Shown here in pieces: positions 1-18,900 of a stretch of 21,982 bases of DNA. This DNA comes from a virus. Within the stretch, counting starts at the first letter, position 1. Each line of letters begins with the position of its first letter. The notes under the pieces were generated by a model that searched no databases, had not been told where the DNA came from, and was given only the letters and a program-made list of their open reading frames with translations. The DNA lies in the IMG/VR virus record IMGVR_UViG_3300005941_000054, positions 1 through 21,982 of that record. The stretch is one strand, 5' to 3'. The position numbers and the translations under genes are program-made.

Positions 1-3000
1 GCCGGCATCTGCAACTGCTGATTTTTGTAATCTAAAACCTGGAGTTGAATAATTTTCAGTAGCTCCCAAATGAGCGGTTAATTGACTATTAAAACCGCCG
101 GTAAAACTTGAAGATACAATTTGCCCTCCTGCTCCATTTGCGGCAGGGTTATTGGAGTCGCTGCTTCCCATTGTTAAGCTATGAGTTATGACCGCATTGT
201 CCGCAAGCAGTAAATTAGTTGCCACGCTTTGAAATTCGGCTCCGAACTTCTTCCAATAATCGTCTGTTTGAGCATGCGTTCCTGGAGCTACAACCAAGCT
301 CGACGGCCCGCTATTTTTCATAGCTATATAATGATGCCCATTTGCTCCTGCTGGAGATGAGGAATTATCGTAATAGACTAGATCTCCCCTCAATTCCTCT
401 GCCGTGTCGGACCCTTGATTGCCATCCTCCATTCCGATATAATTCTTGCCGGCATCCCAGACGCCTCTATAAACAGGCGTTTTTCCTGTTGGTCCAGCAG
501 CTCCAGCAGCTCCATTCGCAAGCATGCTTACTGTTGTTGAATGTTCGGTGCTGGTGCCTATGCCAGAAGCGTATATGATAACAGACTGAAAGTCAATAAC
601 ATCATCAGTTCCGTGAATGATTTTGTCAAAACCTGCGGCGTTGGTTTTTCTATCCCCAACTTTAAACGTAGCGGTTGCGACTTTAGTGTCTGAATTGAAA
701 TAAGTATTGCTTGGTTGGTACTCAAAACCATAAGCATTATAACCATTTGAATAGTCAGTATAATTAAATATGTTAGTTCCATCCGGAAGTTCCATTTTAA
801 ACCTAACGTCGCTTGCGGTAATATCGCTATTGTTAAATCTTACGGTAATGTTTAAAGTTTGAAGTAGCTCTGGGTCAAAAACGCCATCTTCAGCCTCATC
901 GTAATTAAAAACCGCAGGCTCCGCATTCATTGACATTACGGTCAACTCGGAGCCGTCCTTTTGTCTTATATTTCCGTGAATAGTTAACTCGTCCTCCTCA
1001 AAAAACAACTTGCCCCTTTCTGTTTTAAAAATAAAAGAACCGTTTCCGCTGATCGCAAAACCTGCTCCTGGAGCGTCCACACAATCATATCCATATCCGC
1101 CTACATCGTTTAGCAATCCAAAACCAGCGCTTCTGATTTGTCCGCTGTTAGCGTCTCCACCCACCTGAATATCTTGAGATTGTATTACAGAAGATCTTAT
1201 TTTATCGGCCGTTAAATTATGTATTTTTGCATTGGTTATCGCAGCTTCTTCTATATGGGCCGTACCTATCGTTGCGTTCGCAAAAGCGTGCCACATTGGG
1301 GTTGGGGTCCCCCCAGCATTCCTTGCGATTATAAAATCATTATCATCAAGAAGTTTTGGCTTCTCTAAATCCATATCTGTACCTACGTAAGCAGATGGGT
1401 CGCTTGTTTCCCCTTCTCCAGCCGGGTGGTAATCAGAAACTCTATACTGTCCAGAGAACTGAATACTACGAAGGGGGTTCGTGATAGCAGAGCTTACGGA
1501 AACCTCTTCCAGAATTTCTATATCATCTCCGTTTAAAGGGGCTTGAGAAAATGATCTTTCGAGAGTTATTGTGGCATAATTAGCAAACTTCTGATAATTA
1601 GAGATTTTTCTTTCTTGAGTATCTAGCAAGCCATTCTTAAATCGTATATAATGATTATTGTATTGATTAGCTACTCCTAAATCATAATAAGTTTCCTTGA
1701 TAGAAAATTGGCTTCTTGATATGTTTTGCGCTCCATCGATTTCTGCGTGGATTAATCTTACAACTTTATCTCCTGGAGGAGCAAGCCCTAACATCGAGTA
1801 CTGTTCTGCGGTCAAGGCGGACATATCACTCCTCTTCCAATAAATATATTTAGCTGTACTTAATCCCTGACTAGTCTTTAATCCGTAAGTATCGTTATGG
1901 CCAATAACATAACCAACTCCGTCACTATATACAAAATGTCGGTCCCAGGCAACTTCCCCTCCGTATGGCTGGTTAGCTGTAAAAGGGTTGTTTGGAACTA
2001 AAGCTAGAGTGTTTGGAAATGTTTGGGTTATGTTTTGCTCAAAATCTGAAACATCTGTGGTTCTAGCCTGCCCCAAGGTTAAGTTCAAACCTATGATATC
2101 ATTAGAGGATCCTAGGTTAGCGTCGCCAGTAAACGGACCTTTATTGCCTGCGTGATCCACAGGTCTAACCCAAAAATATCTTTTATCATTAGGTTCTCCT
2201 TGATGCGTTATTTGCACGCTTGGAGATATTGCTGAAATATTTAAAACGTTTGTTGCGTTGGTTATTCCCAAAGCTGGGTCATTAATCTCTGTAGGTATTG
2301 GCCCGACACTGGCCAGGTCTCCAGTTATTCTTCTGTATCCTGATAAATTTCTTGTTTCGTCGAGAGTCGTATCCTCAGTTCCAAAATAAAGATAGTTATC
2401 TTCCGACTCCCAAACCTCGTAATGGCTTATGTCGTTTGGGGAAGTGTTGATTATATTATTTACAGAATCAAATTCTGCATCAGGCATTTTCCAATTCAAG
2501 AAATAATTTCTAAAAGCCGTATCTCCCTTAAAATCTTTAACAGGGCCAGGGATCGCATCTTCTGTTGTTGAGAAAACTGGCCCCATGTATCCATTTTCGT
2601 TCTGGTTATTGTATCCATGAGGATAAACCAAAACTCTCTCAAGATCTCCTTGATTATCTGTTACGTTAAATAAGTCGCCGCTACCAAAAGAGTCAAAAGG
2701 AAGAAGTTTATAGTAATAACCGGTTATTTGATGACCTAAACCTGGAACGTTTGGTATTGGAGGCGAATCAGTGACTGAAGTAATATTTTCCCCAAACGTA
2801 GAGTCTCCGGGGCCTAATATTTCTGAAATAAAAGAGCCCGCCCCAGAACCAGGAAAACCATTCGAATCTAGTATTGAAAAAACCGGATCACTAGATCTGT
2901 AGAGTTGAAGCTTTGTTGTTTGTTCTCTTGAGCCATAAGCATAATTAAAATTAAAATGAACTTGGGTGACATTGCTCAAGGAGTCGACTTGAAAGCCTTG

Positions 3001-5730
3001 AGGCAATATACTAGGCTCTGGGTTATTACCAACGATCTTTCTTGAATTTAAAATTTGACCCAAAGGGCTTAAAATCGCCAACTCAAGGCCGACGCTTCTT
3101 TTTCCGCTTTCTGGAATCCCTTCGTGTTTAAAAATTCTATCGTCAAAACCTGTATTTAACTCCCAATAAGGAATCCACTGAGAGGCTTGGTATGAAGAGT
3201 TTATTTGTGAAGAGCTGTCAACTACAGCTTCAAGAGGCGCCCCTATCGGGTTGTTAGCTAAGCATTTATATATAGCTCCGTTAGAAAATACCTTGTCGCC
3301 GATTTGATGGCTTGTTGAGAAGTTGTTTAACTGACCATCGGTATTAGTCCAATAACTACTATTGCTCAAGCTTGGAACTTTTGCTCCTGCAGGCGTGTTC
3401 GGACCGCTTGAATCGATTCCGCTCCATATATCATTAGCGTATACAACAAAATCAAGGCTAGAAAAATCATCAAACTGCGACCAATTACGAATGGGAAAAT
3501 CGTAATTCTCAGCAAGCAGAGAATATTTGTTGGATGTCTCTGGGTTTTGGGCTTGCCAATGAGAGCTTCCTGTAGAAGGAAGTATCTCTGAAGACTGCGG
3601 CACTGCGTTTATGGCTTTGTAAATATCTGCAGGAACATCCGAAAAAGCCGAAGCGCTTCTCCAATGATTTATTCCAGTTCCTGGAGATATATAATCAGAA
3701 ACTGTCTGTTGAGTAATGCATGTATATAAAGACCCTTCATGTAAAACGCTATCGCCAACATCGAAAAACTTTCCTCCATTATAAATTTCGGTGTTGCCGT
3801 TTGGAGATATAACTAAATCACCAACGGAATAGTTTTGAAGTTCGTTATATAAGCCAAGGACATCGCCCGCATCGGGACCTATAATTTCGTTATTAGCAGA
3901 TCCAACAACAGAATAAACACCGCTTTGATAAGTAAATAAATCAGAGCAATTCAAACCGTTTCTGAATAAATAGTTAGTGCTAGAATCCCAAAAACCTATA
4001 GAAGGAGAGGTTAACCTAAAAGAGTTGCTGGCGGTTTCGCTTGTGGCTCTGTACAATGAGTTATCGAATATTACATGATCGCCATTATTATACTGGCCAG
4101 AAAAAGAAAAATCTTCGCTCTCAGGAAAACCTCCAACTTTATAAATTGAGTTGTTTATCGCCCTTGTGTATTCGTAAGTCTCAAAAACTTTTGTGCCAGG
4201 AAGATCTTCAGATATATTTTCAACTCCATTTTCGGTTACAGACGTTCTAGAATTCAAGCCTTCAGTTATTCCAGTTAGAAATGAATTCGTATCACTATCG
4301 TACAAAGATCCGCTTATACCAAGAATAGTGGGCTTATCAGTTGCGCCAACTAAAAATTTATATTGATTTAAATCTACTAAATTATTATCTTGATCAGTTA
4401 TATTCCAACGAAAAATTAAATCATCACCTCTTTCTATAAAATTTAAATTATCGATCTTGACATCAGACTTAAAATAAGCTAACGCGCCTCCTGGATGTAA
4501 ACCGGTTTCAGTTAGATTGACTCTTACTCCTGTACCATAACCATCAATAGGCACAAAAGAATAATAATAATTATATCCCCATATTTGATTAAATTCTTTA
4601 TTGTTTTGAGTTACATCTTCTTGAGTGAAAGAATGGTCTATCACTGGCCCTATATTTGTCCAATAGCTAGTGTCGCTTGTATTTATATTTGGAAAGCTGG
4701 AATATATGTAATTTTGTATACATTCAAATACAATTGAATTGTGAACGACTTTATCTCCGACTCTATAATTATTGTGCTTTTCCCAAATAGGGGCTCTACT
4801 CAGGCTTTCGTAATGATCTATGCTTTGTTGAAGGTTATAAGGATCGTATATTTCTTCGTCGCCAGGAATAGCGAGAGATGAGATTTGAGCTGCATAAAAA
4901 TCGGTATCTTGAGAGGACCAACTAAAAGACATTTTTGCCCCCCTTAAATTATAGCTTAATGAGTCAACTGTAGGTAAATAATTTATTCCAGTCAATACCC
5001 CGGTTGCTTGACGACCAAACGCGTCGTTAGAGACAACTTCCAACGCAAGAGTTCTGTCTAGACTTAATTGCTCTACCGTGTCGCTGGACAAGTTAAAAGA
5101 AAACCCTGTATAGCCATGCATCATATCGGATACTGACGAAGTATCTAGAGCTGTCTGAAGAGCTATCGAACTATTTAATTGTGCATCAGAAATTATATCG
5201 CCATTTTCTGTATTCCTGATCTGGAGAGAAAAATCCTTCAAAAACTTATCTCCGAGCAATTCATTCCCCAATGATCTCCCTTCTTTAGCGTGGCCTGGAG
5301 GGGGAGATAGCCTCCATTCTATCTCTACATTCCTGTTGATATATTCAGAGTTAACTGCTAATAAATTACCAGTCTCAGAAGGTTCTATTTCGATAGTGCT
5401 TCCTATGTTTGAATCTTCTGGAAGATTTGAAACTTTGATTTCGGAAAATGTAAAAGTGTCATCAAACAATGGGGGACTAATAGATATCTTTTCCTCAAGA
5501 AATTCAGAGCGAATACCTACGTCGCTTACCGCAAATATTCTAATTGAAAAAATGCCATAATTACCATTTAAGGATATAGTTTTTTGGGCGGTTTCTCCTT
5601 CAAAATCTACAAGCTTACTTCCTTTCCCTAGGTTGTATTGAAATGAGTAATTGTCGGACGAGCCAATCACTTCGTAATTAGCCTTGAGATCGTTTACATC
5701 AAACTGAATTCCTATTGCGGTAGATAGCAT
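1..5730 (-). CDS. Central tail fibre / C-terminal part of gpJ, 3'-partial
   Basis: The reading frame from the ATG at 5728-5730 is open for 1910 codons to the window edge with no stop, so the C-terminus lies outside. It starts 3 nt after the stop of the tip-hub gene, in the same frame. Visible parts in order: fibronectin-like beta domains (about 5730-4860); a series of Trp/Tyr-rich modules with Y-x-x-G-D-x-V followed by Y-x-C and a closing W (about 4795-3165); more fibronectin-like domains (about 3160-2050); the gpJ-typical stretch with IGTAHIEEAAITNAKI and NLTADKI (about 1300-1195), which in the lambda J family precedes the terminal fibre; four Gly-X-Y triplets (478-513); and a last carbohydrate-binding-like module (about 235-475). 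By position and motifs it forms the trimeric central fibre that touches the host receptor. This role is inferred. No Shine-Dalgarno is evident before the ATG, so reinitiation after the upstream gene is likely. At over 1910 residues it is far longer than the equivalent part of lambda gpJ. Confidence 0.85.
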   Translation of the reverse strand, partial: MLSTAIGIQFDVNDLKANYEVIGSSDNYSFQYNLGKGSKLVDFEGETAQKTISLNGNYGIFSIRIFAVSDVGIRSEFLEEKISISPPLFDDTFTFSEIKVSNLPEDSNIGSTIEIEPSETGNLLAVNSEYINRNVEIEWRLSPPPGHAKEGRSLGNELLGDKFLKDFSLQIRNTENGDIISDAQLNSSIALQTALDTSSVSDMMHGYTGFSFNLSSDTVEQLSLDRTLALEVVSNDAFGRQATGVLTGINYLPTVDSLSYNLRGAKMSFSWSSQDTDFYAAQISSLAIPGDEEIYDPYNLQQSIDHYESLSRAPIWEKHNNYRVGDKVVHNSIVFECIQNYIYSSFPNINTSDTSYWTNIGPVIDHSFTQEDVTQNNKEFNQIWGYNYYYSFVPIDGYGTGVRVNLTETGLHPGGALAYFKSDVKIDNLNFIERGDDLIFRWNITDQDNNLVDLNQYKFLVGATDKPTILGISGSLYDSDTNSFLTGITEGLNSRTSVTENGVENISEDLPGTKVFETYEYTRAINNSIYKVGGFPESEDFSFSGQYNNGDHVIFDNSLYRATSETASNSFRLTSPSIGFWDSSTNYLFRNGLNCSDLFTYQSGVYSVVGSANNEIIGPDAGDVLGLYNELQNYSVGDLVISPNGNTEIYNGGKFFDVGDSVLHEGSLYTCITQQTVSDYISPGTGINHWRSASAFSDVPADIYKAINAVPQSSEILPSTGSSHWQAQNPETSNKYSLLAENYDFPIRNWSQFDDFSSLDFVVYANDIWSGIDSSGPNTPAGAKVPSLSNSSYWTNTDGQLNNFSTSHQIGDKVFSNGAIYKCLANNPIGAPLEAVVDSSSQINSSYQASQWIPYWELNTGFDDRIFKHEGIPESGKRSVGLELAILSPLGQILNSRKIVGNNPEPSILPQGFQVDSLSNVTQVHFNFNYAYGSREQTTKLQLYRSSDPVFSILDSNGFPGSGAGSFISEILGPGDSTFGENITSVTDSPPIPNVPGLGHQITGYYYKLLPFDSFGSGDLFNVTDNQGDLERVLVYPHGYNNQNENGYMGPVFSTTEDAIPGPVKDFKGDTAFRNYFLNWKMPDAEFDSVNNIINTSPNDISHYEVWESEDNYLYFGTEDTTLDETRNLSGYRRITGDLASVGPIPTEINDPALGITNATNVLNISAISPSVQITHQGEPNDKRYFWVRPVDHAGNKGPFTGDANLGSSNDIIGLNLTLGQARTTDVSDFEQNITQTFPNTLALVPNNPFTANQPYGGEVAWDRHFVYSDGVGYVIGHNDTYGLKTSQGLSTAKYIYWKRSDMSALTAEQYSMLGLAPPGDKVVRLIHAEIDGAQNISRSQFSIKETYYDLGVANQYNNHYIRFKNGLLDTQERKISNYQKFANYATITLERSFSQAPLNGDDIEILEEVSVSSAITNPLRSIQFSGQYRVSDYHPAGEGETSDPSAYVGTDMDLEKPKLLDDNDFIIARNAGGTPTPMWHAFANATIGTAHIEEAAITNAKIHNLTADKIRSSVIQSQDIQVGGDANSGQIRSAGFGLLNDVGGYGYDCVDAPGAGFAISGNGSFIFKTERGKLFFEEDELTIHGNIRQKDGSELTVMSMNAEPAVFNYDEAEDGVFDPELLQTLNITVRFNNSDITASDVRFKMELPDGTNIFNYTDYSNGYNAYGFEYQPSNTYFNSDTKVATATFKVGDRKTNAAGFDKIIHGTDDVIDFQSVIIYASGIGTSTEHSTTVSMLANGAAGAAGPTGKTPVYRGVWDAGKNYIGMEDGNQGSDTAEELRGDLVYYDNSSSPAGANGHHYIAMKNSGPSSLVVAPGTHAQTDDYWKKFGAEFQSVATNLLLADNAVITHSLTMGSSDSNNPAANGAGGQIVSSSFTGGFNSQLTAHLGATENYSTPGFRLQKSAVADAG
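235..475 (-). other. C-terminal carbohydrate-binding-like module of fibre
   Basis: This follows four Gly-X-Y triplets (478-513). It encodes PVYRGVWDAGKNY, then GDLVYYDN, HHYIAMKNSG and DDYWKKFG. This is the same plan as the fibre array modules, and a type often seen at phage fibre ends. Confidence 0.55.
478..513 (-). repeat. Short collagen-like Gly-X-Y stretch
   Basis: Four consecutive triplets, GAAGAAGPTGKT, precede the terminal module of the fibre. This is a short trimeric linker type common in phage fibres. Confidence 0.6.
3165..4795 (-). repeat. Array of carbohydrate-binding-like modules in fibre
   Basis: At least four, perhaps five, units share Y-x-x-G-D-x-V, a strand with Y-x-C or F-x-C, Pro, and a closing W. 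Clear cores are YRVGDKVV (unit about 4655-4795), YNNGDHVIF (about 3985-4110), FDVGDSVLHEGSLYTC (3661-3780) and HQIGDKVFSNGAIYKC (about 3165-3330). A weaker unit lies at about 3340-3490. The look is that of chitin-binding type 3 (CBM5/12) modules. Actual ligand binding is not shown. Confidence 0.6.
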
Positions 5731-5736
5731 TTCTTA
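5728..5736 (-). other. In-frame stop/start junction splitting gpJ
   Basis: The order on the coding strand is TAA, GAA, ATG in one frame: the tip-hub stop at 5734-5736, one sense codon, then the fibre start at 5728-5730. There is no clear ribosome binding site for the second gene. The short spacing suits termination-reinitiation. The context is not one of the known efficient readthrough contexts. Confidence 0.85.
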
Positions 5737-8700: not shown

Positions 8701-10404
8701 AAAAACCCAAGCGGGATTATCGGTCCAATGTTTATCCTCATCATCGATTGAATGTATAGACGAAAAAGAATCTGACTGACCTTTAAACAATCCATTCCAA
8801 GGGCCATCATAATGTTTTGATATTGGGTCATAATTCGAAGGAATTAAAACTTTCTTTAACTTCGCATGGTAAGATCTGTCGGGTAAATTTGAAAAATTCT
8901 TACTGTCAAATTTGAGTTTCACGATAGCGCTATGAGGATAAAGCAAAGGCTCTTCTATGTATTCAGCGACAGAAGATAACTTCAAGCTTCTGTCTCTGCC
9001 TATGCCCCCTAAAGCTCCTTTTACGGAGGGGTCGTATTCGTTGCTTAGTTTTATTAATTTAAAAGTGATGCCTCTTGAGCTTATTTTTGGTCGCTCGAAG
9101 TTGATAACAATATCAAAAGCGTAGAGTGAAGTGCAAAGGCCTGTAACTATAAACTTGTTACTTTCGTCTGTTTTTATAGCTCCCAACGTGTCATCAAAAC
9201 TAACCGTACACCCAGAGCTTGAAGACAAAACGTTATGTTCGACATAGTCCTTCTCCATCAATATTACAAATTGAACATTGTTACCCTGGTTAGATCCGTC
9301 ATCATTCTGAATTGACAAGCTTGTATTCATTTCGATTCGGATTTTATTAACGTTTTTATTTGCCACAAAATGGGCCGCTATTTTGGCCCCGTTTTTCTTT
9401 GCGGATGACGCACTGTCTCTATGCTCAGCGTTTTCTTCGTTGTTTGTGTAAGGCCCAGCTCCGTATAATAATACGCCATGCTCAATCACAAAACAATTAA
9501 AATCTGAAATAATTAAGGTGTCTTTTTCTTCTCCCTTTTTTATTACAGGTTGCTCGCCGTTTTCGTTGAGTATGTAATTCGCAGTCCCAACTTCGGCTTC
9601 GCTTATAGGTGTATTTACAACTGGAACGTTATTTAAAAAAATACCCTCCCGAAGATCGGAAGAGCTTCTTTTTTTTCTGGTTCGCCCCCCGAAGTTTCTT
9701 TTTAGATAGTCTCCGCCGTCTGCTATATTGCCATTCTGATCACAAAGTCCAGCTATCGGACCCTCACTTAATAAATCCAAAAACTCTATCTCAGTATAAG
9801 ATTCCAAGACATGATCCTTCCCAGGTATGGATTTTCTTTTTGATATTTTGTGTTGAGATATATTTGTCGCTCCTATTTTTAATCTTCCATAGCCCAAAGG
9901 CACTGCAACGCCTTGGCTTTGCCTATTGGCTGTTCCCTTGAGTAAATAAGATTTTGTTGTTGTGGGGGTTTTTCTTTCGGGCGGCTTAAATAATGCTTTC
10001 ATTATCGCGCCAACAACAAAAGATACAGCAACGGCCACAACTATTTTACCAACAAGAGTTAATCCGCCCGCAGTTGTTCCACCAACAAATAAAACTGTCA
10101 TTATAACTGCCGCATTGCCTTGCGGCGCGGGAACAATATGCATTTCTTGCTTCTTGTCCTTTATTTCAACCATGGACTCGGAGATCATATGGTTTTTTAA
10201 TTCTTTTTTTGAAGAAATATTGATTGGGGATTTATTTAAAACAGCATACTCAACACCGTCCCTTTGACTTCTAGCGAGGTACTCAAGAAATCCTTCTTTA
10301 TTGGCTTCTATAGCGGCAAAAACTTCCACAGCTGAGTCCGCGTTCAAGCTCCACTTTCGACCAAAGCGTTTTCCGAGCTTTCCATATAAATATACCGTTT
10401 TCAT
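5734..10404 (-). CDS. Tail tip hub protein, gpI-gpJ fusion
   Basis: This 1556-residue protein carries gpI and the N-terminal hub of gpJ in one chain. Residues 1-190 look like lambda gpI: a start resembling L-Y-G-x-L-G-x-R-F-G, an HIVP motif near residue 90, a hydrophobic Gly/Ala/Val segment at about 98-140, and a close resembling QGVAVPLGYGRLKIG. The hub follows, with the gpJ hallmark NPAWVFYDLLSNARYGVG near residue 560 and a second hallmark, ITDESEALQLINNMASIFRG, near 760-780. A beta module with HGFVDGDRIRF lies at about 1050-1125. A Trp-rich module lies at 1189-1279. The region at about 1477-1518 (VLEGQLFRTMSVKEK, then YEIVGLEYN) matches the gpJ segment just before the fibronectin part. The protein should close the tail tip and mount the fibre encoded next. 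The ATG is preceded by AAGG with 4 nt spacing. The gpI/gpJ identity is by recalled family pattern and gene order. Confidence 0.88.
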   Translation of the reverse strand: MKTVYLYGKLGKRFGRKWSLNADSAVEVFAAIEANKEGFLEYLARSQRDGVEYAVLNKSPINISSKKELKNHMISESMVEIKDKKQEMHIVPAPQGNAAVIMTVLFVGGTTAGGLTLVGKIVVAVAVSFVVGAIMKALFKPPERKTPTTTKSYLLKGTANRQSQGVAVPLGYGRLKIGATNISQHKISKRKSIPGKDHVLESYTEIEFLDLLSEGPIAGLCDQNGNIADGGDYLKRNFGGRTRKKRSSSDLREGIFLNNVPVVNTPISEAEVGTANYILNENGEQPVIKKGEEKDTLIISDFNCFVIEHGVLLYGAGPYTNNEENAEHRDSASSAKKNGAKIAAHFVANKNVNKIRIEMNTSLSIQNDDGSNQGNNVQFVILMEKDYVEHNVLSSSSGCTVSFDDTLGAIKTDESNKFIVTGLCTSLYAFDIVINFERPKISSRGITFKLIKLSNEYDPSVKGALGGIGRDRSLKLSSVAEYIEEPLLYPHSAIVKLKFDSKNFSNLPDRSYHAKLKKVLIPSNYDPISKHYDGPWNGLFKGQSDSFSSIHSIDDEDKHWTDNPAWVFYDLLSNARYGVGKYGLYEEYIDKWQLYKISKYCDELVRTDYEIETSSNSPVNFTSEVDSSSKSDSFSITIDQSSYSSDDFIKDFGTGDQFKGKKIAFFVPSRSQDIAALTGANKSEAILQLQLRAVQLSGEIKIEQRDIVSSNPNKNGGGTLIVSGPDLSGLSSSFQEGDSIKTIGGCAVQINHAIVEPRFSSNLYITDESEALQLINNMASIFRGIVTFYNGKIMAIQDSYKNPIQLFNNSNVSVDGFAYSGVSKDQKITSSIVRYNNKDDSFKPATVQEEDKNAIRTFGFKEKETLGFGITSSSQARRLAKWVLYTTQLETETVSFETSAEASYLYPGSIFEISDEMRVGKSKSGRILDIKFYTKTYEFEQSGGNRVPKGSFDIYSPYILLDKHMLDEPFVSMVELTVCTGLTNSTEQKLNLRAPFERASLDQDAEIESVSVPQVIKFECSIGYNSDIVKKGPQGQSVIASDFYLKIPFEISLSDNTFSIFNHGFVDGDRIRFTTEGSLPSGISMGRRGSTAYYIKSSTKHTFKISSSAAGDEVNVSSHGLDTLGNDGGLHYICPEDEEKTKEALTKVMIGSSWSAKGLMAAKTEEELEQVLVDKLDLMSNEDSDQFKGWEISSWLGWLRPFSNDWGYATQLGWVYLGELKKSSGDDGFWFYTASSTGTPSSGWIWTNDSLKETYWFFYSLYSESNTASGWVIPYYDDRLSLIEFFVYDSDLTKQIGDSYILNDNKYIIVQKSSSIQGYFIRSHLLMNQVVGVPRSNLTNSSPSDLGGLSLNQRRETLTESGYYKEINIDSFDYLNAASSLQAKESIRINLSETHAEIIKDGQEVFIEGVTDSSGDFDDYVNVVYVYDNVDKRWTTSVDPWALIKINDYQFELVNSSPLVSKLNSSNITSYGKISFTPPPSSEAERVLEGQLFRTMSVKEKSQNRYEIVGLEYNQSKFDAVDKQTVVRQPVMPIPPQADMRIPEAPDTLILTDLTI
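6568..6840 (-). other. Trp-rich surface module in tip protein
   Basis: Residues 1189-1279 of the gpI-gpJ fusion hold about fifteen aromatic positions in the pattern W-L-G-W-L, W-G-Y, LGWVYLG, FWFY, GWIWT, YWFFYS, GWV. This resembles a short C-terminal module I recall from secreted or surface proteins of marine Verrucomicrobia and relatives. The match is from memory. Confidence 0.55.
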
Positions 10405-10782: not shown

Positions 10783-11821
10783 ACCTTAATCCTTTATGAG
10801 TTATATTTGTTTTATTATAATCGGTGATATCTCTAGATCCACCTAGAGAATCCTCATGAGACTTAGAGAACCTTTTCTTGCAAGAGTCTATTGTTTTCTG
10901 ACATTCGTCTTTCACCCAATGGTTGATGTCGAAAAACGGTATATGATCAGATGCGATAGCGTGGGTTTTTATACATAAAAAAACAACAGGGGTTGACTTG
11001 TAAGGGTCGGTCGAGCTTTGGGGGATTATTTTCACCAATCTGCCAGAATCGTACCCACCTGGAACTTGTTCGTTATCCAAGAATCCATGCTTGCTCCATT
11101 TGGGAATATCTTCTAATCCATTGCTATAATAATTATGAGCATATTTTTGTGTTAAGTCTCGACCTTCGGTATCTTCTATAGCCAAGCCTTTGTAACCGCA
11201 ACCAATAGAACATCTATACATCCAAGAACAATGAGAAGGCATTACTATTCTAGCTGGGACAGCTGACCCCTGAAGCTCCAGAGAAGAAACAAGCTCAAAA
11301 GTAATGACGTTTTTGTTTTCTACCGTCTTCTTGTTTACGAAAAATATATCGTCAGGAAAGTGTGAATTTGGATCGGATTCCCCAAAAGGATTCTTCCCAG
11401 ATTCGTTTAAATTTCTGTTTTGAAAGTTTTCATCATCAAGAAATTTAACAAAAGTTCTTTTTCTAGTTATTTTGCAATTAGCAAAATCCTTATTTGATCT
11501 TACGATTTTGGACAAAAGCCCCTCGGGATTAGCTATTGATATTGTTGGCCTCGGAAGCCTTCCGTCAGACTGGCTTTCGAAGCCCTCCATCTTTACAGGC
11601 AAAGGTTGGTAAGCGTTACCCTGCCAATAAACAGGGTTGCTTGAATTTTTCATTGGGGAAAATCTATATACAGGATCTGCACCTAGATTAACTCCGTATA
11701 AATCCTTAAGCATTTCAAAGTTTGATTGAAGATTACTAAAATCGATTTCGTACATATCCACGACCGAATCGGGAGTGATTGAAACCAATTGTTTATTAAA
11801 GTTTGATTCTGATTTTGCCAT
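10742..11821 (-). CDS. gpL-like minor tail protein with Cys cluster
   Basis: This 359-residue protein follows the lambda gpL plan. The N-terminal tube-like domain has the family pattern VYWQGNAYQPLPVKMEGFE and GRLPRPTISIANPEG at residues 64-101. A cysteine site follows: C198, C204 and C208 in CSWMYRCSIGCGYKG, then C307 and C314 in ECQKTIDSCKKRF. The chain ends with RFGGFPG at 346-352, another family hallmark. In lambda gpL the four-cysteine site binds an iron-sulphur cluster; here one extra Cys is present near it, so which four bind is open. The protein is longer than lambda gpL (232 residues). Part of the excess is an inserted Trp/Tyr-rich module at 241-307 between the two Cys groups. It probably forms a ring linking tube and tip. 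It begins 2 nt after the preceding gene. Confidence 0.87.
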   Translation of the reverse strand: MAKSESNFNKQLVSITPDSVVDMYEIDFSNLQSNFEMLKDLYGVNLGADPVYRFSPMKNSSNPVYWQGNAYQPLPVKMEGFESQSDGRLPRPTISIANPEGLLSKIVRSNKDFANCKITRKRTFVKFLDDENFQNRNLNESGKNPFGESDPNSHFPDDIFFVNKKTVENKNVITFELVSSLELQGSAVPARIVMPSHCSWMYRCSIGCGYKGLAIEDTEGRDLTQKYAHNYYSNGLEDIPKWSKHGFLDNEQVPGGYDSGRLVKIIPQSSTDPYKSTPVVFLCIKTHAIASDHIPFFDINHWVKDECQKTIDSCKKRFSKSHEDSLGGSRDITDYNKTNITHKGLRFGGFPGTERYPVG

Positions 11822-11823
11822 AA

Positions 11824-14112
11824 TTATTTTTCTGCTGCGACGAATATTTTTAATTCGCCTTTTTGGAGATGGCTTGACGCAGAGCTTCTTATATATAGAT
11901 CTCCAAAATAGTATTTATTCACAAGCTCCACAAGAATAATGTCTGAATTATTGTCCACTATTTCATTTGTGAATTCATCAATCAATTCGACATTCACGTC
12001 TGAATTGTTAATTCCGAAAAACTCAATATCAATATAACCCTCCTCTCCCGCCTCAATTATTGTTTTTTGATTATTGATAAAGAAATTTTCAATTGCGAAT
12101 TTGTCACACTCTCTGTATGCAGTATTAAACGGCTCGCTTACTCCGGATTTTATTTGTCCCCTATTATTTTGAAAAAAAGTATTTGGAACTGAATTAACGA
12201 TTTCGGACTTATAGTTCCCGAAAGAGCCCGTAACCACAGTAAACATCTGCCCGCCATCGCTAACGCCAGGAGTATAAGACTTGCTTAGCTTTATTGTTTT
12301 ACCGTTGAGTCCAAAAGGAAACCCTGCAGACGGAAGGTCGTATATGTAATCTTCTTTATCAAGACCTTCGCCAATAAAAGGAACGTTTGCGCCTCCGCCC
12401 TGACCTATAATAGAAAAACTCCCAAGATCTCTCTCTATGGCTTCTGCGCTAATCAACGTTAAAGGCTTATCTCCGATATTCATTAGTTTAACCCTCGCCT
12501 TACCTTTCTCTCCGGGAATTATTTGCTCTCCCTGGTCTTTGATTGAAAACGATATCGGAGATGTGAATATTAATTCTGCTTCTGCCAATTCTGGGGGCGT
12601 ATCTAAATTAGTGAAATCTTGCTCATCTATATTAAACGGAAATTGCTCGAATCGAGCGGATACGCTATGATTATTCTTGTAATTATAAGTGTGACTCCAC
12701 TCTTGGCACACAAAGTTTTGTTTTCTATTATATGGAGCGGGAGGGGTAAAGTTAAAAGGCTTGTGCCCCAGTCTCTGCTCAAGAAAATGAAGTATAGCAT
12801 AAGCTTCTTCGTCGTCTCTGTTATTGAATTGCAAGTCCAAACTTAAAAGACTTTCATTTATGCCGTCATTATAAATCTGAAGATACCCCCCTAATTCTAT
12901 TTCGCTCATTCTTGGCTTTTGGTCAACGTTTAGCCCTAGAGATGGCTTCCAAAAGAAATCGCGAGTCCAATAACCTGTGTGTAAATCTTTCTTGTAATTA
13001 AGTCGGCCATTAAACCCTGTGGTTATCTCGGCGGGAACTTTATTGCTGGTGCTTGAATCGCTGTGCCAATAATAATATGAATGATTGCCAGTGTAAAAAG
13101 CTACATCATTTCTTTCGTAAACCATTGTCGGATCAAACGCCTCAGCTTTCCTTATAAACAACTGCTCAGATTTCCTCAACGAAGAAGTGTCCAAGTTTCT
13201 AAGCTTTAAGCTTACATTGTTGCTGTTTTCAAAACTTAAAGCGTGATTAAATTCGGAGCAATAAAAAGTCTTGGCTTCATTTTCTGTTGACCGATAAGGG
13301 TTAAACATCGCGTTTCCGTCCCATCGAAACCCTGATATTCCTTGTTTGTATTTGAGATTAGGAGAAGAGGCGTCAACCTCTAATTGCCCCAAATGGTTTT
13401 CTACAAAATGTATTATAGAATTAGCTTCTTTATTTGTTCTGTTATCGAATTTTAAATTAACTTCAAACGTTAATGCGTTTATTCCTTTTGGCTGCAGGAT
13501 GTAGTAGCCATTTCCATATTCATGCTTTATATTGTTCGCTTTAAAATTAACTGTCGATCCATAATCTGCGTCGTAAAAAAACTTATTGCTTGTCCACAAA
13601 TCTGGATTAGATTCAGGGTACGCATTGATTGTTGAGATTGTTAGAACATTAGCGGAGGAAGGTTCGTAATTTTCTATAAAACTAGTTTCGGATGTCCCCT
13701 TTATTTTTATTGCTGCACCAGTTAAGCCTTGAACAGTGGTGCTTGTGTAATTTTTTTGTATATTTAATATAGAATAAGTTCCATCGCTAGATCCAGTAGA
13801 TCCAGCTATATTTATTATGTTTCCAGGTTTAAATGTTGCGTTTAGATCGTCGGGCCTATTAAACTCATCAATAATATAATGAGAATTAGCTGCGACCTCA
13901 TGAGGAAGTAATGTAAATCTTTGATCGTCTGAGACAGAGACTCCGCCACCGAAAACCATATTTTGCTTTGCATAATAATATAATCCATCGCCTGTGGCAT
14001 AAACAAAATCAAACTGTTCGTAATTTTGTCCTGTTTGAAAAACTCCGCTATAATTAACGAGGTTTCCCATTCTTCCTTCAGAAACATCTGAGCCTGGAGC
14101 GGATATTGTCAT
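11824..14112 (-). CDS. Minor tail protein with two tandem gpM-like domains
   Basis: This 762-residue protein has two related copies of a domain resembling lambda gpM (phage minor tail protein family). Copy 1 (residues 176-307) has EYGNGYYILQPKGIN, then NKEANSIIHFVENHLG and TFYCSEFNHALSF. Copy 2 (384-492) has ELGGYLQIYNDGIN, then EEAYAILHFLEQRLG, FNFTPP and NFVCQEWSHTYNY. Each copy is preceded by a Tyr-rich carbohydrate-binding-like module (20-56 and 327-388). Residues about 95-145 form a small beta module with GNIINIAGS and SDGTYSI. The C-terminal part (about 515-762) looks Ig-like, with a stretch PGEKGKARVKLMNIGDKPL typical of ASH/choice-of-anchor folds. Lambda gpM is only 109 residues. A duplicated gpM could make a pseudo-hexameric ring from three chains at the end of the tube, with the extra domains exposed outside. 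The domain calls come from recalled patterns and the ring model is inference. Confidence 0.78.
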   Translation of the reverse strand: MTISAPGSDVSEGRMGNLVNYSGVFQTGQNYEQFDFVYATGDGLYYYAKQNMVFGGGVSVSDDQRFTLLPHEVAANSHYIIDEFNRPDDLNATFKPGNIINIAGSTGSSDGTYSILNIQKNYTSTTVQGLTGAAIKIKGTSETSFIENYEPSSANVLTISTINAYPESNPDLWTSNKFFYDADYGSTVNFKANNIKHEYGNGYYILQPKGINALTFEVNLKFDNRTNKEANSIIHFVENHLGQLEVDASSPNLKYKQGISGFRWDGNAMFNPYRSTENEAKTFYCSEFNHALSFENSNNVSLKLRNLDTSSLRKSEQLFIRKAEAFDPTMVYERNDVAFYTGNHSYYYWHSDSSTSNKVPAEITTGFNGRLNYKKDLHTGYWTRDFFWKPSLGLNVDQKPRMSEIELGGYLQIYNDGINESLLSLDLQFNNRDDEEAYAILHFLEQRLGHKPFNFTPPAPYNRKQNFVCQEWSHTYNYKNNHSVSARFEQFPFNIDEQDFTNLDTPPELAEAELIFTSPISFSIKDQGEQIIPGEKGKARVKLMNIGDKPLTLISAEAIERDLGSFSIIGQGGGANVPFIGEGLDKEDYIYDLPSAGFPFGLNGKTIKLSKSYTPGVSDGGQMFTVVTGSFGNYKSEIVNSVPNTFFQNNRGQIKSGVSEPFNTAYRECDKFAIENFFINNQKTIIEAGEEGYIDIEFFGINNSDVNVELIDEFTNEIVDNNSDIILVELVNKYYFGDLYIRSSASSHLQKGELKIFVAAEK
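12637..12963 (-). repeat. gpM-like domain, copy 2
   Basis: Residues 384-492 of the minor tail protein. This copy is closer to lambda gpM: it opens with FFWKPSLG and keeps F-x-F-T-P-P before the FVCQEWSHT strand. Confidence 0.72.
13192..13587 (-). repeat. gpM-like domain, copy 1
   Basis: Residues 176-307 of the minor tail protein. Shared with copy 2: Y-G/G-G-Y, then G-I-N, L-x-F-x-N-R, EA-x-x-I-x-HF-x-E-x-x-LG, and C-x-E-x-x-H. The DNA has diverged, so this is an old duplication. Confidence 0.7.
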
Positions 14113-14114
14113 GA

Positions 14115-15032
14115 TTATTTAATTATCTGCTTTACAGATATTGAACCCATTGCATGCGAACTTTCTGATATTGATATTGATTGGCTATGTATTTTTCCAG
14201 AGCAAGAGAAATTGGCTATCTTTTCTCCCTGCAGGCTGTATAAAAAAGCTTGTATAGTAGAGTCGTTTAAACCTTCAGGGGTTGTTCCTGATTGGTAATT
14301 TCCGTCTGGATTTAAATTTCTTACTATATCGTTGGATTCTATATTCATCTCCGCTTCAATATTCTCAATTGATACGCGAGTAGGAACCACTCCATTCGCG
14401 GTTGTATTAATAGAGGTATGTTCGCCGTCTTTTATATGATTATGTACCTTCCTTCCCACTATTATATTATAATTTAATTTAGATACCTCAAATTGTTTTT
14501 TATTTGCAGTGTCCATATTTGTATTACTTGCCTTGACTTCTCCAAATGATTTCAAGCCATGGGCCGGATCAATACTTAATTCTTGAAACCTTCTATCTGC
14601 TGTTTTTAATATAGTACCATATATATCATAACTTGCATTAGCTTGTATAACTTGAAAAGGAGAAATACTAAAACTAAAATTATTTAAATACATATTATCA
14701 AATAGATAACGACCTACTATATTTCCATCAATAGGATCTTCACTCATACCATCTTTTATTTCAAATAATCTATCAATAGAATTAATAGTATTATTTTGTT
14801 TAAAAAATTCAGCAGTAATTACAAAAGAAATATCGAGCTTGCCGCGAAGACCTGCGGTGGCTGCAAAATTAACGAATTCGGTTTTTGCTCCGACTATCGA
14901 TAGATCAAGATCTCCATATACTCTTTCTGGCTCGAGAGTTGGAGTTATTGATAAATTGGCAGACTGAACCATTAGATCTTTGCCTCCCAAAGAAATCTTA
15001 CCATCTTCAAATCTTAAAAAAGGCTTGCTCAT
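14115..15032 (-). CDS. Tail tube-like / distal ring protein B
   Basis: A 305-residue protein rich in beta-strand-like alternating segments, with few Cys and no signal peptide or membrane segment. Its ATG overlaps the stop of the preceding gene in an ATGA, which implies translational coupling. A 2-nt gap separates it from the gpM-like gene. It seems to share a plan with the preceding 293-residue protein: an early strand pair, a G-L-R-G-K-L-D-I-S-F type strand, a mid-protein Y-L-F-D-N-x-Y loop, then a strand ending in Y-D-I-Y-G. This suggests an old duplication, although identity is low. Position between tape measure and M/L genes suggests a tube-fold ring at the tip end of the tail rather than the bulk tube protein, which in lambda lies upstream of the tape measure. 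Exact function is not recognised. Confidence 0.6.
   Translation of the reverse strand: MSKPFLRFEDGKISLGGKDLMVQSANLSITPTLEPERVYGDLDLSIVGAKTEFVNFAATAGLRGKLDISFVITAEFFKQNNTINSIDRLFEIKDGMSEDPIDGNIVGRYLFDNMYLNNFSFSISPFQVIQANASYDIYGTILKTADRRFQELSIDPAHGLKSFGEVKASNTNMDTANKKQFEVSKLNYNIIVGRKVHNHIKDGEHTSINTTANGVVPTRVSIENIEAEMNIESNDIVRNLNPDGNYQSGTTPEGLNDSTIQAFLYSLQGEKIANFSCSGKIHSQSISISESSHAMGSISVKQIIK
15029..15032 (-). other. ATGA start/stop overlap
   Basis: The stop of ring protein A (TGA) and the start of ring protein B (ATG) share four bases. This is a classic sign of coupled translation, which would keep the two products at similar levels. Confidence 0.9.
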
Positions 15033-15910
15033 ATTACTGGATTATGAAGGGTCTCATATGATTTATAAGTTAAAGATATACTCATTTCTCCTTCGACCGA
15101 TGATGTTATAGATTCGCTTATTAATCTAGCCTTAACGCCAGTAAAAGAATTAATAACTTCTTTTGTTTTAGAATCTTTTATTTGAATAACGACATCGCTT
15201 TCTGGAGCTGCTCTGAGGCGATCCTTGGTTTGTCTTACTTCGTATTCATTTACAATCATTGTGAAATTGATATCTGTTTCGATTGGATAAATTGTATCGA
15301 TTTGTATTGGATCATGATTTTCATAAGTGGTCTTGCTGTCGGCATACCATTCGGCCTCGGTGCCTTTTGGGATTGCATACATTGGCTGCAAATTTAAAGC
15401 TCTACTAAAGCTGAAATCTGTTACTGCATCTGTTGAAAAATCGCTTACGTTTATTGAAATGCTCGCTTGGTCAGTGAATTGTATGGCGGGATGAGGTTTG
15501 GTAGCTTCTTGAATTAATATTCCGCTTCCTAGATCTCCAAATACAGTGATATCAGTTTCAATGTCAGGAAGATCGCCTACTGTGCAGTTGACTGCATAAC
15601 GAGTAATTCTTCCTTTTGTGAACCCAAAACCCTTTGTGTTATTGTCATACAAAATTGACCCACTTATTTCATTTTCGTCGTAGGCATACTGTCCAACTAC
15701 ATTCAGGTCCAGTATAGGATCCCTGCTTACCATCTTTCTTGAAATCGAAAAATTACCCTCAAGAGGTCCGTTAACAAAAGCGTCTATAAATCCTACACCA
15801 GCAACTTTTATTGGTTTTTCTGTTATTCCGTAACTTCCATTAACATTTACTACTCCAGAAAGAGCGGTATTGTTTACAACTATAGTTTGTTCATAATTTG
15901 AGAAAGTCAT
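15029..15910 (-). CDS. Tail tube-like / distal ring protein A
   Basis: A 293-residue protein beginning 2 nt after the tape measure stop (TGA-TC-ATG). It is predicted by eye to be almost all beta, with many Ser/Thr/Val/Ile strands, and has no membrane segment. Landmarks are NGPLEGNFSISRKM near residue 48, the loop SILYDNNTKGFGFTKGRI near 85-102, and a C-terminal strand pair ending in EGEMSISLTYKSYE. A tail-tube-like fold would fit the length and location. It is probably a distant paralogue of the next gene, with which it overlaps by 4 bp, so the two may form a stacked or mixed ring. I do not recognise a named family with certainty. A distal tail (Dit-like) or adhesin-bearing ring is an alternative. 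Confidence 0.6.
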   Translation of the reverse strand: MTFSNYEQTIVVNNTALSGVVNVNGSYGITEKPIKVAGVGFIDAFVNGPLEGNFSISRKMVSRDPILDLNVVGQYAYDENEISGSILYDNNTKGFGFTKGRITRYAVNCTVGDLPDIETDITVFGDLGSGILIQEATKPHPAIQFTDQASISINVSDFSTDAVTDFSFSRALNLQPMYAIPKGTEAEWYADSKTTYENHDPIQIDTIYPIETDINFTMIVNEYEVRQTKDRLRAAPESDVVIQIKDSKTKEVINSFTGVKARLISESITSSVEGEMSISLTYKSYETLHNPVI

Positions 15911-15912
15911 GA

Positions 15913-18900
15913 TCAGTCACTCAACAAGCCTCCTGGTCGCTTTTCGTCCATTATTACAGAAATAACTTGCTGCTTTACCTTTTCTGCTAGCTGTGAGCTT
16001 TTTTCTTGGTCCGCCGATGAATCTTTTGGGTTAGCTCCTCCTTCATCGTTCTTTTTCTCTGATTTCCCACTTCCCTTGTCCATATTAACTGTTATGTTAA
16101 TATTATTTGTATTTCCTCCAGAAGTTCCAGTTTCTGAGCTTTCTGTTAAGGGGGTTACTGCTCCGCCATCATTAAATTTTCCTGCGTTGATTCGGTCAAG
16201 CATTGGCCTTCCAAGTTGACGAGCGCTACTTGCACGAATTACATATTCTCCTTCGCTGAGCATTGCGGGAATTTGATCGATACCAGACTTGCCAGCTATG
16301 TGGCCGCCGTTGGCATAACCATTTATTTTTCCTCCTCTATAAGAGGTTCTGTATTCCGAGGAGAAGTCCTCTGCCAGCAGAGAACCGTAATCGTAACTAT
16401 TTGATCCGAATTGTCTATCGTTTAGGCTTGACCCTTTACCAAAAACCTTAAAAGGATTAAAGCTTCTTGTGTTTTGTACGTTATCATATCCGGTAGCATC
16501 AACGCCACGCCTAAGGCTTACTTGCTCACCAAAAGAATTAGTCGCAGATCTCACACCTGCTGGAGTATCATTGGTGTAGCCATCTGCTCTTGCATCAGCA
16601 GTTAGCCCCCCACCTTCAATAGCTGCACTTGCAAGAGATCCAATCCCAACGCTTAAAGCGGTACCTACGATCATTTGCATTAAAGCTCTTTTTTTGGCTT
16701 TTTTCTCGGCTTCTTTTCTCATTCTTTCTTGAATAATACCTTTTGTATATTGAGTATCCTCTTGAAGCCCTAAGTTTCCAGATTGTCCGCTATAGAAAAA
16801 TCCAGACATTGCTTGGGTTTGATATCTTCTTCCTGTGTTGTAACCTTCTCCTCCTCCAAAATTTGCAGCGAGAGCGGATCCTGGCTGAGCCTCGTCCGGT
16901 TTTCCTCCATTTGAATAACCTGGAAGCTTTCCTCCCGCATTAAGGCGATGCATGAATCCGCCACCGTATTTTTTCACAGCGTCGCGACCCATTACATATT
17001 CACCATTAGTAACCATTGCAGGAACTCCGCCTCCTTTAGAATATTTTCTTACTCCTCCTCCGCTAGAAAACGGTAAAGCTCCAACGATTGCATCGGCAGC
17101 TTTGCCAAGATAAGCTTTTTGGATTGCTCCAAGAAAATTCATTGCAATATTATTCATAACATCGCTCAAGTCATCGGCTTTATTTATTGCTGCTTGCATT
17201 CCATCAACAAGGCCGTCTCTAAATTGATGTGTTAATTCGTCTCCGAGTGTATACTCCATCATAGCGGCGTTCTTTGCTATATCTATTTTAGCATCCCTAG
17301 CTCCCTCCCCAAAAGCGCCTGGGCCGGTTTTTCTGCGGTATTCATCCTCTCTTATTTTCTGCAATTTTTTTTCTTTTTCTATTCTCTCTTTAGTAGCGAA
17401 CAGTTGTTCTTGAAGTTTTTCAATAATGTCGTCCTCTTGTTTGGATGTTTGAGCTTTTGCATCGGTAATTGATTGTTGCAGGTCTTTTAACTCTTGCAAC
17501 GCCTGAAGTTCTTCTCCTTGTGGTTTTTTAAAAAGTAACTCATTAATGTAATTCTCTCCGCCCTTATCCTCAAATTCCTTACTCATAGAGTCAATAGCCG
17601 CTGAAGACATACCTTTTAATTTTGATGGGTCAGCCGCAATTTCCAATCTTTGCTCTTTAGTTAAACCTTTATCAGTTGCCAGTTTTTGCATTTCTGAAAC
17701 TGCGCTTTTTGTATATGATTCACGAATACCTTGCTGTCTTTCCTTGACTAATCTTCCCTGTTCTGCGAAAGTTGCATCTTGAGTTTGAGGCCTGGCTCCA
17801 AATCTAGCAGCGGTAATTTCAGAAGCTATTGCCCTGGATTGAGCAGCATTATCTAACCCACGGATGTAAGCTTGCATCTCTCTATTAACATCGACCATTA
17901 GGTCTTTTTGTTTGGCGATCTTACTGTTGAGGTTTTTTTGAGCCTCGCTCTGGTCGTCAGAAAGAGTTTGTTGCCGTTTCAATTTATCCAATGAATTGTC
18001 ATATAATAAATTTCTATTTTCTATTATTTTGTTTGCCGCATCTCCTTTTATATTAAGGTTGTCTAAAATTATCAATAATTCTTTAGCGTCCATTGCTGCC
18101 AATTTATTAGTCAAATCTACAGTCTTAACTTGTCCGACGCTTGCGTATTGTTTGCCTTTGCCGATTTCATCTTTAAATAGCTCCTGTTTTAAAGCTTGCT
18201 TCAGGTTTCGGTCTTTGCCGATATCCGAAAGGATCCCTGCCTTTTTGGCGTCTACAGCAGCCTGGGCGCCTAACTCATAAGCCTGACTAGCTTTTAATAA
18301 ACTTTTATTATACTGAATTCTAACTTTTTGTTCCTCGCTTATCAAACCGCCGAGAATCTTTTCTTGAGAATTTAATAAGTTAGATTGTTCTAGATATTTT
18401 GATTTTATATCGACCTGGGCCCCATAAGCGGCTTGTTGAGCAGTAATCATAGCCTTCTGAATATCAAGCTGAAGAATTAAGGCTTCGACTTGCGCTGCTT
18501 TTTTATTATTATATTCACTTTGTATTCTTTCGGATTGCTTATTAAGTGCGGCCTTAATAGCTTCCTCGGACAAAATTTGCTTGCCGATTTTGCCGCCAAC
18601 ATCAACTTCTTTACCCTTCAAGAGATTAGCGTATTGAACTTTATCCAAGTAGCCTGTACCCCCTTTCTTTTCGCCAAAATCGTAAGCAAAACTTGACCTT
18701 TTTTCGTTCTCCATTAGATAGTCGATGATTTCCCCTCTAGAATCTTTTTGCGATTGACGCATGCGATCCCGCTTCTCGAAAAGCTGTTCGCTCATGGGGG
18801 CGTCTTGATCTTGGCTCATCCCCATAAAATCTTTAGATTGTTTTTGATATTGATAGGATTTTCTCAATGTCATTAAAATAGTATTTTTTCTTTCCCCTTT

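Follow-up and report, generated by a model that had tools for sequence, protein, structure and literature searches.

A CBM5/12-like module in the ring, hub and fibre proteins of a lambda-type tail tip from uncultured marine viruses

The tail genes of IMG/VR virus record IMGVR_UViG_3300005941_000054 (positions 1 to 21,982; this whole stretch of 21,982 nucleotides is referred to as the window) encode three proteins in which one small beta module recurs. The fibre carries an array of units, the gpM-like ring protein has two and the gpL-like hub protein has one. The window is a virus fragment with all of its tail genes on the minus strand, and the viruses that carry the module are a family of uncultured marine viruses of bacteria. 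On balance it is fairly probable that this module, which resembles the carbohydrate-binding modules (CBMs) of the CBM5/12 superfamily, is employed as a standard adaptor that decorates the exterior of a tail tip of lambda type. An earlier note on this DNA, made from the sequence alone, had proposed one such module in three neighbouring tail genes. Three tail proteins do share it; a gpK-like protein and gpJ lie between gpL and the fibre and are without the module.

Detection of the units by fibre-derived profiles

The relatives used here are mostly metagenome contigs, retrieved with the window's own proteins. Open reading frame (ORF) matches (142 gpM, 143 gpL) were restricted to complete ones and reduced by shared 5-mers, which also collapsed overlapping loci from one contig, to 49 gpM and 56 gpL. 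A length filter before alignment removed one gpM and three gpL fragments, leaving 48 gpM and 53 gpL as the family; the structure alignments comprised 35 of the 48 gpM sequences (up to 1120 residues) and 53 gpL sequences. All hhalign and HMMER E-values given below are for a single comparison.

The profile was built from fibre units only, with the six units of the window as seeds, six search rounds and a final hidden Markov model from 151 units. The final search returned 154 units from 38 of 40 fibre ORFs, a non-redundant set from relatives, and their consensus is typical of CBM5/12. Searched against PDB sequences, the fibre-unit profile finds Vibrio chitin deacetylases (E 1.6e-11) and chitinase A1 (ChiA1, 1ed7; E 6.6e-6). 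The whole fibre exceeds the curated CBM_5_12 cut-off (46.2 bits vs 26.2), and single fibre units are matched by CBM_5_12 in 24 cases out of 43; of the gpL sequences, one in 53 is matched directly. Judged by these significant profile matches, the fibre units can be placed in the CBM_5_12 superfamily, whose core Tyr and Trp are kept in the units.

Applied to the other tail proteins at a domain threshold of E<0.01 (Z=1), the fibre-only profile matches 33/49 gpM and 37/56 gpL and none of 125 control proteins (0/44 gpJ, 0/40 p5, 0/41 p6). Reversed sequences gave 1/49 gpM, 0/56 gpL, 0/44 gpJ, 1/40 p5 and 1/41 p6, and in five-fold shuffles the sequences matched were 5 gpM, 2 gpL, 9 gpJ, 4 p5 and 6 p6. 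The matches in the window lie at gpM residues 25-51 (E 6.5e-4) and 325-353 (E 0.027) and at gpL residues 280-303 (E 0.0034). Among the 48 family gpM, 25 are matched at site 1, 15 at site 2 and 8 at both, so that at least one site is matched in 32, with one further match elsewhere. In gpL, 36 of the 53 are matched inside the site and one more lies one residue beyond the limit set.

Profile-profile comparison points to the same places. Among 87 tiles, the top six are the claimed regions, whereas the null of 79 tiles set aside reaches a maximum score of 15.5 and a maximum probability of 12.7%. By hhalign, the gpL unit matches the fibre units at 94.7% (E 6e-8, 45 columns), gpM unit 2 matches them at 65.8% (E 5.7e-5, 46 columns), and gpM units 1 and 2 match each other at 94.1% (E 1.3e-7), positions 11-42 of one aligning in register with 11-42 of the other. 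The earlier note had placed units at residues 20-56 and 327-388 of the gpM-like protein and, as a possibility, at 241-307 of the gpL-like protein, and had suggested detecting them with a single profile. Both gpM sites are borne out, even with a profile from the fibre alone, and the tentative gpL unit has become the clearest case, combining the fibre match with a fold match of its predicted model.

Units in the double Dit ring protein and in the gpL hub

In the gpM-like protein two distal-tail (Dit) domains are fused in one chain, which makes it a double Dit like Pseudomonas phage JBD30 gp49 and phage Chi chain 8vjh_B. Its domains 1 and 2 match each other at 99.0% (hhalign, E 8e-18), and residues 175-494 of its model match the double Dits of Chi and JBD30 with Z 12.3 and 12.1. 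JBD30 gp49 is described as trimeric; each subunit has two beta-sandwich domains, the trimer brings sixfold symmetry down to threefold, and every Dit domain bears one OB decoration. Those OB domains lie within each sandwich domain, whereas here a CBM5/12-like unit directly precedes each gpM domain. Lambda gpM is a clear homologue of domain 2; it is single, and its ring consists of six copies in two conformers, in contrast to the fused double protein of this family.

The core residues checked in the gpM units are nearly invariant: Y31, D35, Y47 and W173 of unit 1 are kept in 48/48 and Y46 in 47/48, and Y332, D336, Y347, Y348 and W382 of unit 2 are kept in 48/48. In the model the gpM units show a similar strand spacing, in regions left uncovered by the structural matches listed, and a CBM5/12 fold is a candidate for them. 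The last part of unit 1 aligns very weakly, by profile, with the fibre-unit end. The C-terminal part of gpM matches varied beta-sandwich domains with Z up to 11.2, which is a common fold. Each gpM domain has a unit before it, and the two units align in register; the simplest reading is that a unit and its gpM domain were duplicated together in tandem, which is the probable origin of the pair. The domain shuffling within the operon that had been suggested earlier suits these units as an old event only, and the gpM pair is better explained by the duplication.

In gpL, the unit lies inside the iron-sulfur (Fe-S)-type domain. PF05100 is found in 53/53 family members, and the gpL model matches lambda gpL (8iyk_L) with Z 16.7; the two are clear homologues with a similar Fe-S cysteine pattern. 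In lambda gpL, the Fe-S ligands are Cys173, 182, 205 and 212, and the domain that they hold sits on the outside of the tip. Residues C198, C208, C307 and C314 probably correspond to these ligands, so that the gpL unit would occupy the spacer that separates ligand 2 from ligand 3. This spacer is 22 residues long in lambda (Cys182-Cys205) and 97-135 in the family (24 of 53 measured), and the unit core residues checked in gpL are kept in 53/53.

Residues 240-305 of the gpL model match the CBM of the Vibrio chitin deacetylase 4nyy with Z 5.6 and a root-mean-square deviation of 1.5 Å over 45 residues, and residues of region 237-308 superpose on the CBMs of several chitin deacetylases (Z 5.1-5.6, 1.4-2.9 Å, 45-50 residues). 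This comparison was made independently of the fibre profile. Model confidence, as predicted local distance difference test score, averages 73 for gpL and, in ten-residue blocks, lies at about 68-94 within the unit. The predicted model thus gives the gpL unit the CBM_5_12 three-dimensional fold.

No fibre-type unit was found below E 0.1 in 13 gpL of named phages, and named phages yielded no match to either the fibre region or the C-terminal region of gpL. The Cys2-Cys3 spacer is 21-25 residues in 12 of these 13 gpL and 260 residues in Synechococcus phage S-CBS4 (L158), where the insert at the same spacer is unrelated and without a unit match; the spacer accepts inserts elsewhere too. Relatives of gpM in bacterial genomes were limited to one contig of a metagenome-assembled genome among 163 pattern matches.

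Putative ligand contacts and rival explanations

In CBM5, two neighbouring aromatics and a third one contact chitin, and the core is made by one Tyr and one Trp. All 53 gpL share a C-x3-H motif, followed after five residues (six in one) by X-x-P-x6-W. The contact position X is His in 41, Phe in 5, Tyr in 3 and another residue in 4, with no Trp. The motif has the same spacing as the chitin deacetylases for the His, the contact position six residues on, the Pro and the Trp. The loop Trp of the deacetylases is, from known CBM5/12 structures, what we take to be the contact residue. In gpM unit 2, 41 of 45 matched members (of 48) have a Trp after the YY strand and before the final Trp, not at the deacetylase spacing. 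The gpL unit resembles chitinase A1 and Vibrio chitin deacetylase CBM5/12 in fold, as the fibre units do in sequence profile, but those proteins keep the contact Trp, which is replaced here. As the units do not retain the exposed chitin-contact Trp of chitin-binding CBM_5_12 members, they are classed as a CBM5/12-like fold and not as a chitin-binding CBM. With that Trp absent from gpL and rare in fibre units, their sequences make chitin binding itself unlikely; binding to another glycan, or a structural role, is possible. Carbohydrate binding by the module is putative, and the name carbohydrate-binding holds at the level of the fold.

Several results weigh against a shared adaptor module. By hhalign, gpM unit 1 reaches only 27.7% against the fibre units, and the gpL unit compared directly with the gpM units only 0.1-3.8%, which is no match. 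Among PDB sequences, the gpL-unit profile matched nothing, and that of gpM unit 2 gave only a doubtful lectin match and no chitinase. The CBM Z-scores of the gpL model (5.1-5.6) are modest and extend over about 45 residues, and of the 154 fibre units, which keep the core aromatics, only 4 show a Trp in the region of the ligand loop. No unit is covered by the structural matches listed for the gpM model; other domains fill that list, and the absence of a CBM fold from it excludes nothing.

A purely structural role, with the CBM5/12-like fold reused as spacer and domain socket and without glycan binding, deserves weight, although we judge it rather doubtful. The core aromatics are invariant, the canonical contact Trp is missing, and the gpM units hold inserted domains and abut ring domains, all of which would suit such a role. 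It sits less well with the His, Phe or Tyr at the gpL contact position in 49/53, or with the Trp in most copies of gpM unit 2, even at its different spacing. The low score of gpM unit 1 could also mean that the gpM units are no homologues of the fibre units and that a small beta hairpin carries a motif resembling theirs (Y, D, V, YY, W); the lack of direct CBM_5_12 Pfam matches (0/35 gpM scanned) and of a PDB chitinase agrees with this. Such a hairpin is nevertheless unlikely, given that the fibre profile aligns with unit 2 across 46 columns, that unit 2 ranks above the null tiles and that matches sit on the two sites in 32/48 members.

That fibre units were copied recently, inside the operon, into gpM and gpL would agree with a fibre-type unit nested in unit 2 of one gpM (L141, see below) and with a second, Trp-rich module that is present or absent by lineage. 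It is very improbable when the three units have kept their core residues, with unchanged location, throughout the 48 gpM and 53 gpL examined. Fibre units, moreover, cluster in a tree by position in the fibre across genomes and not by genome. This tree, which the earlier note had suggested, was relied on only for that grouping: the units are short, gpL units were shortened in alignment to the fibre model, gpM unit 1 was omitted, and the deep branches are mostly poorly supported and gave no resolution. Chance similarity of motifs, finally, could draw on low single-sequence scores and a few matches in shuffled controls; it is hardly credible beside site-specific matches and a gpL fold match independent of the fibre profile, and was rejected by the tile ranking and the control proteins.

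A proposed decorated tip, a possible insertion port and neighbouring genes

The preferred reading is a shared adaptor module. Sequence and model show a module array in the fibre, one module before each gpM domain of the double Dit and one in gpL, between cysteines that probably match Fe-S ligands 2 and 3. Where lambda has six gpM, three fused ring proteins may take their place and join a sixfold tube to a threefold tip as in JBD30. Three double ring proteins would place six modules around the tube end, with three on the hub and more on the fibres, so that the tip, judged from the known one of lambda, may be decorated along its length as earlier suggested. The modules might contact host surface glycans weakly and multivalently. 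The ring copies would stem from tandem duplication, and the fibre and gpL copies would be older relatives by domain shuffling.

Segment lengths across the 48 gpM differ sharply by region. The unit-1 segment from Y47 to W173 spans 123-1068 residues and the C-terminal segment, starting at 496, 229-1412, whereas the domain-1 segment (173-315) is 143 residues in 48/48 and the domain-2 segment 112-113. Unit 2 has 66-72 residues in 45/48 and is longer in L145, L141 and L033. The unit-2 loop of L145 (gpM at L145:2858-7993) holds a matrixin-type metalloprotease (PF00413, E 3.9e-13) with the HExxHxxGxxH motif at about residues 785-886; L141 has an extra fibre-type unit nested in this loop (E 1.2e-6) and L033 a further insert. 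In the 24 alignment segments of long unit-1 inserts (>300 residues), no fibre-type unit was found at E<0.01. The last loop of the gpM unit would act as a port for other domains that leaves the ring undisturbed.

The Trp-rich module occurs in gpJ (44/44), gpM (21/48) and fibre (5/40), with no match in gpL, p5, p6 or reversed sequences. Its six best gpM matches (L068, L071, L145, L063, L079, L022) lie, by segment lengths, inside the unit-1 loop. Together with the nested unit of L141, this module indicates that modules have moved among tail genes more recently, while the three units described here stay fixed. Separately, the gpM-like protein of L133 (L133:355-8001; 2549 residues) has an RCC1-like propeller near its N-terminus (residues 112-383).

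Both double Dits in a single fused chain and tails decorated with CBMs are already known. Lactococcal 936 phages carry CBMs in the evolved Dit, the major tail protein and the neck, two of which are reported to bind host cells. Those phages are likewise CBM-decorated in virion parts but have a Gram-positive host and another tail tip, whereas here the tip is of lambda type and the units lie in the ring and the Fe-S domain. In the open-licence literature, no report was found that combines a double Dit with CBM5/12-like units, no paper that links 'minor tail protein L' with 'carbohydrate-binding module', and none that combines distal tail protein, insertion, metalloprotease and siphophage.

The coordinates of all features are collected in Table 1. 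Proteins p5 and p6, of about 300 residues each, are conserved in the family without a convincing Pfam or PHROG match. They were considered as further double tube proteins and rejected: they have no internal repeat and no gpM-domain match, and the link between them is only weak. Residues 1-185 of gpJ match phrog_32 (tail assembly protein), a possible gpI-gpJ fusion.

Table 1. Positions of tail genes, units and domains in the window
Feature	Position	Strand	Basis or remark
gpL unit (residues 238-306)	10904..11110	-	hhalign match to fibre; model fold match
gpL C198, C204, C208	11198..11230	-	kept in 53/53; C198 and C208 probably lambda Fe-S ligands 1 and 2, judged by position
gpL C307, C314	10880..10903	-	kept in 53/53; spacing like lambda Cys205, Cys212
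gpM unit 1, first part (residues 17-56)	13945..14064	-	fibre profile match; hhalign match to unit 2
Insertion in unit-1 last loop (residues 57-165)	13618..13944	-	predicted beta-rich from model secondary structure
gpM unit 1, last part (residues 166-174)	13591..13617	-	core W173
gpM domain 1 (residues 175-312)	13177..13590	-	second PF05939 stretch; hhalign to domain 2
gpM unit 2 (residues 318-384)	12961..13161	-	hhalign match to fibre
gpM domain 2 (residues 385-495)	12628..12960	-	best PF05939 stretch 386-490; lambda gpM 8iyk_E Z 9.7, 32% identity
gpM C-terminal part (residues 508-762)	11827..12591	-	beta-sandwich; structural matches
Fibre unit F1	4645..4800	-	fibre unit search; CBM_5_12 E 8e-5 for F1 alone
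Fibre unit F2	3979..4128	-	fibre unit search
Fibre unit F3	3649..3783	-	fibre unit search
Fibre unit F4	3334..3489	-	fibre unit search
Fibre unit F5	3166..3327	-	fibre unit search
Fibre unit F6	238..477	-	fibre unit search; longer first loop
Trp-rich module in gpJ (residues 1187-1263)	6616-6846		
Tape measure	15913-21963	-	named from position and content; no family search aimed at it
p6	15029-15910	-	between tape measure and gpM
p5	14115-15032	-	between tape measure and gpM
gpM-like protein, 762 residues	11824-14112	-	PF05939 in two stretches, E 3.9e-25
gpL-like hub protein, 359 residues	10742-11821	-	PF05100, E 6.8e-46; Fe-S-type C-terminal domain
JAB-domain protein, gpK-like, 118 residues	10426-10782	-	short; overlaps gpL end
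gpJ protein	5734-10404	-	
Fibre	1-5730	-	open at contig end

The CBM5/12-like fold may even be a universal connector of the tip, with the ligand loop of the ring unit as a port for protease, beta domains and further modules, a wider reading that we hold tentatively. If it is true, the tip could exchange what it carries for adhesion and as enzymes while the ring stays fixed. The gpL Fe-S domain, outside on the lambda tip, is hinted to be a display site for modules. Exact sites are available for testing binding and insertion, namely gpL H293 and the gpM loop between Y348 and W382. This family of uncultured marine viruses shows how modules on a constant ring can redecorate a tail tip.

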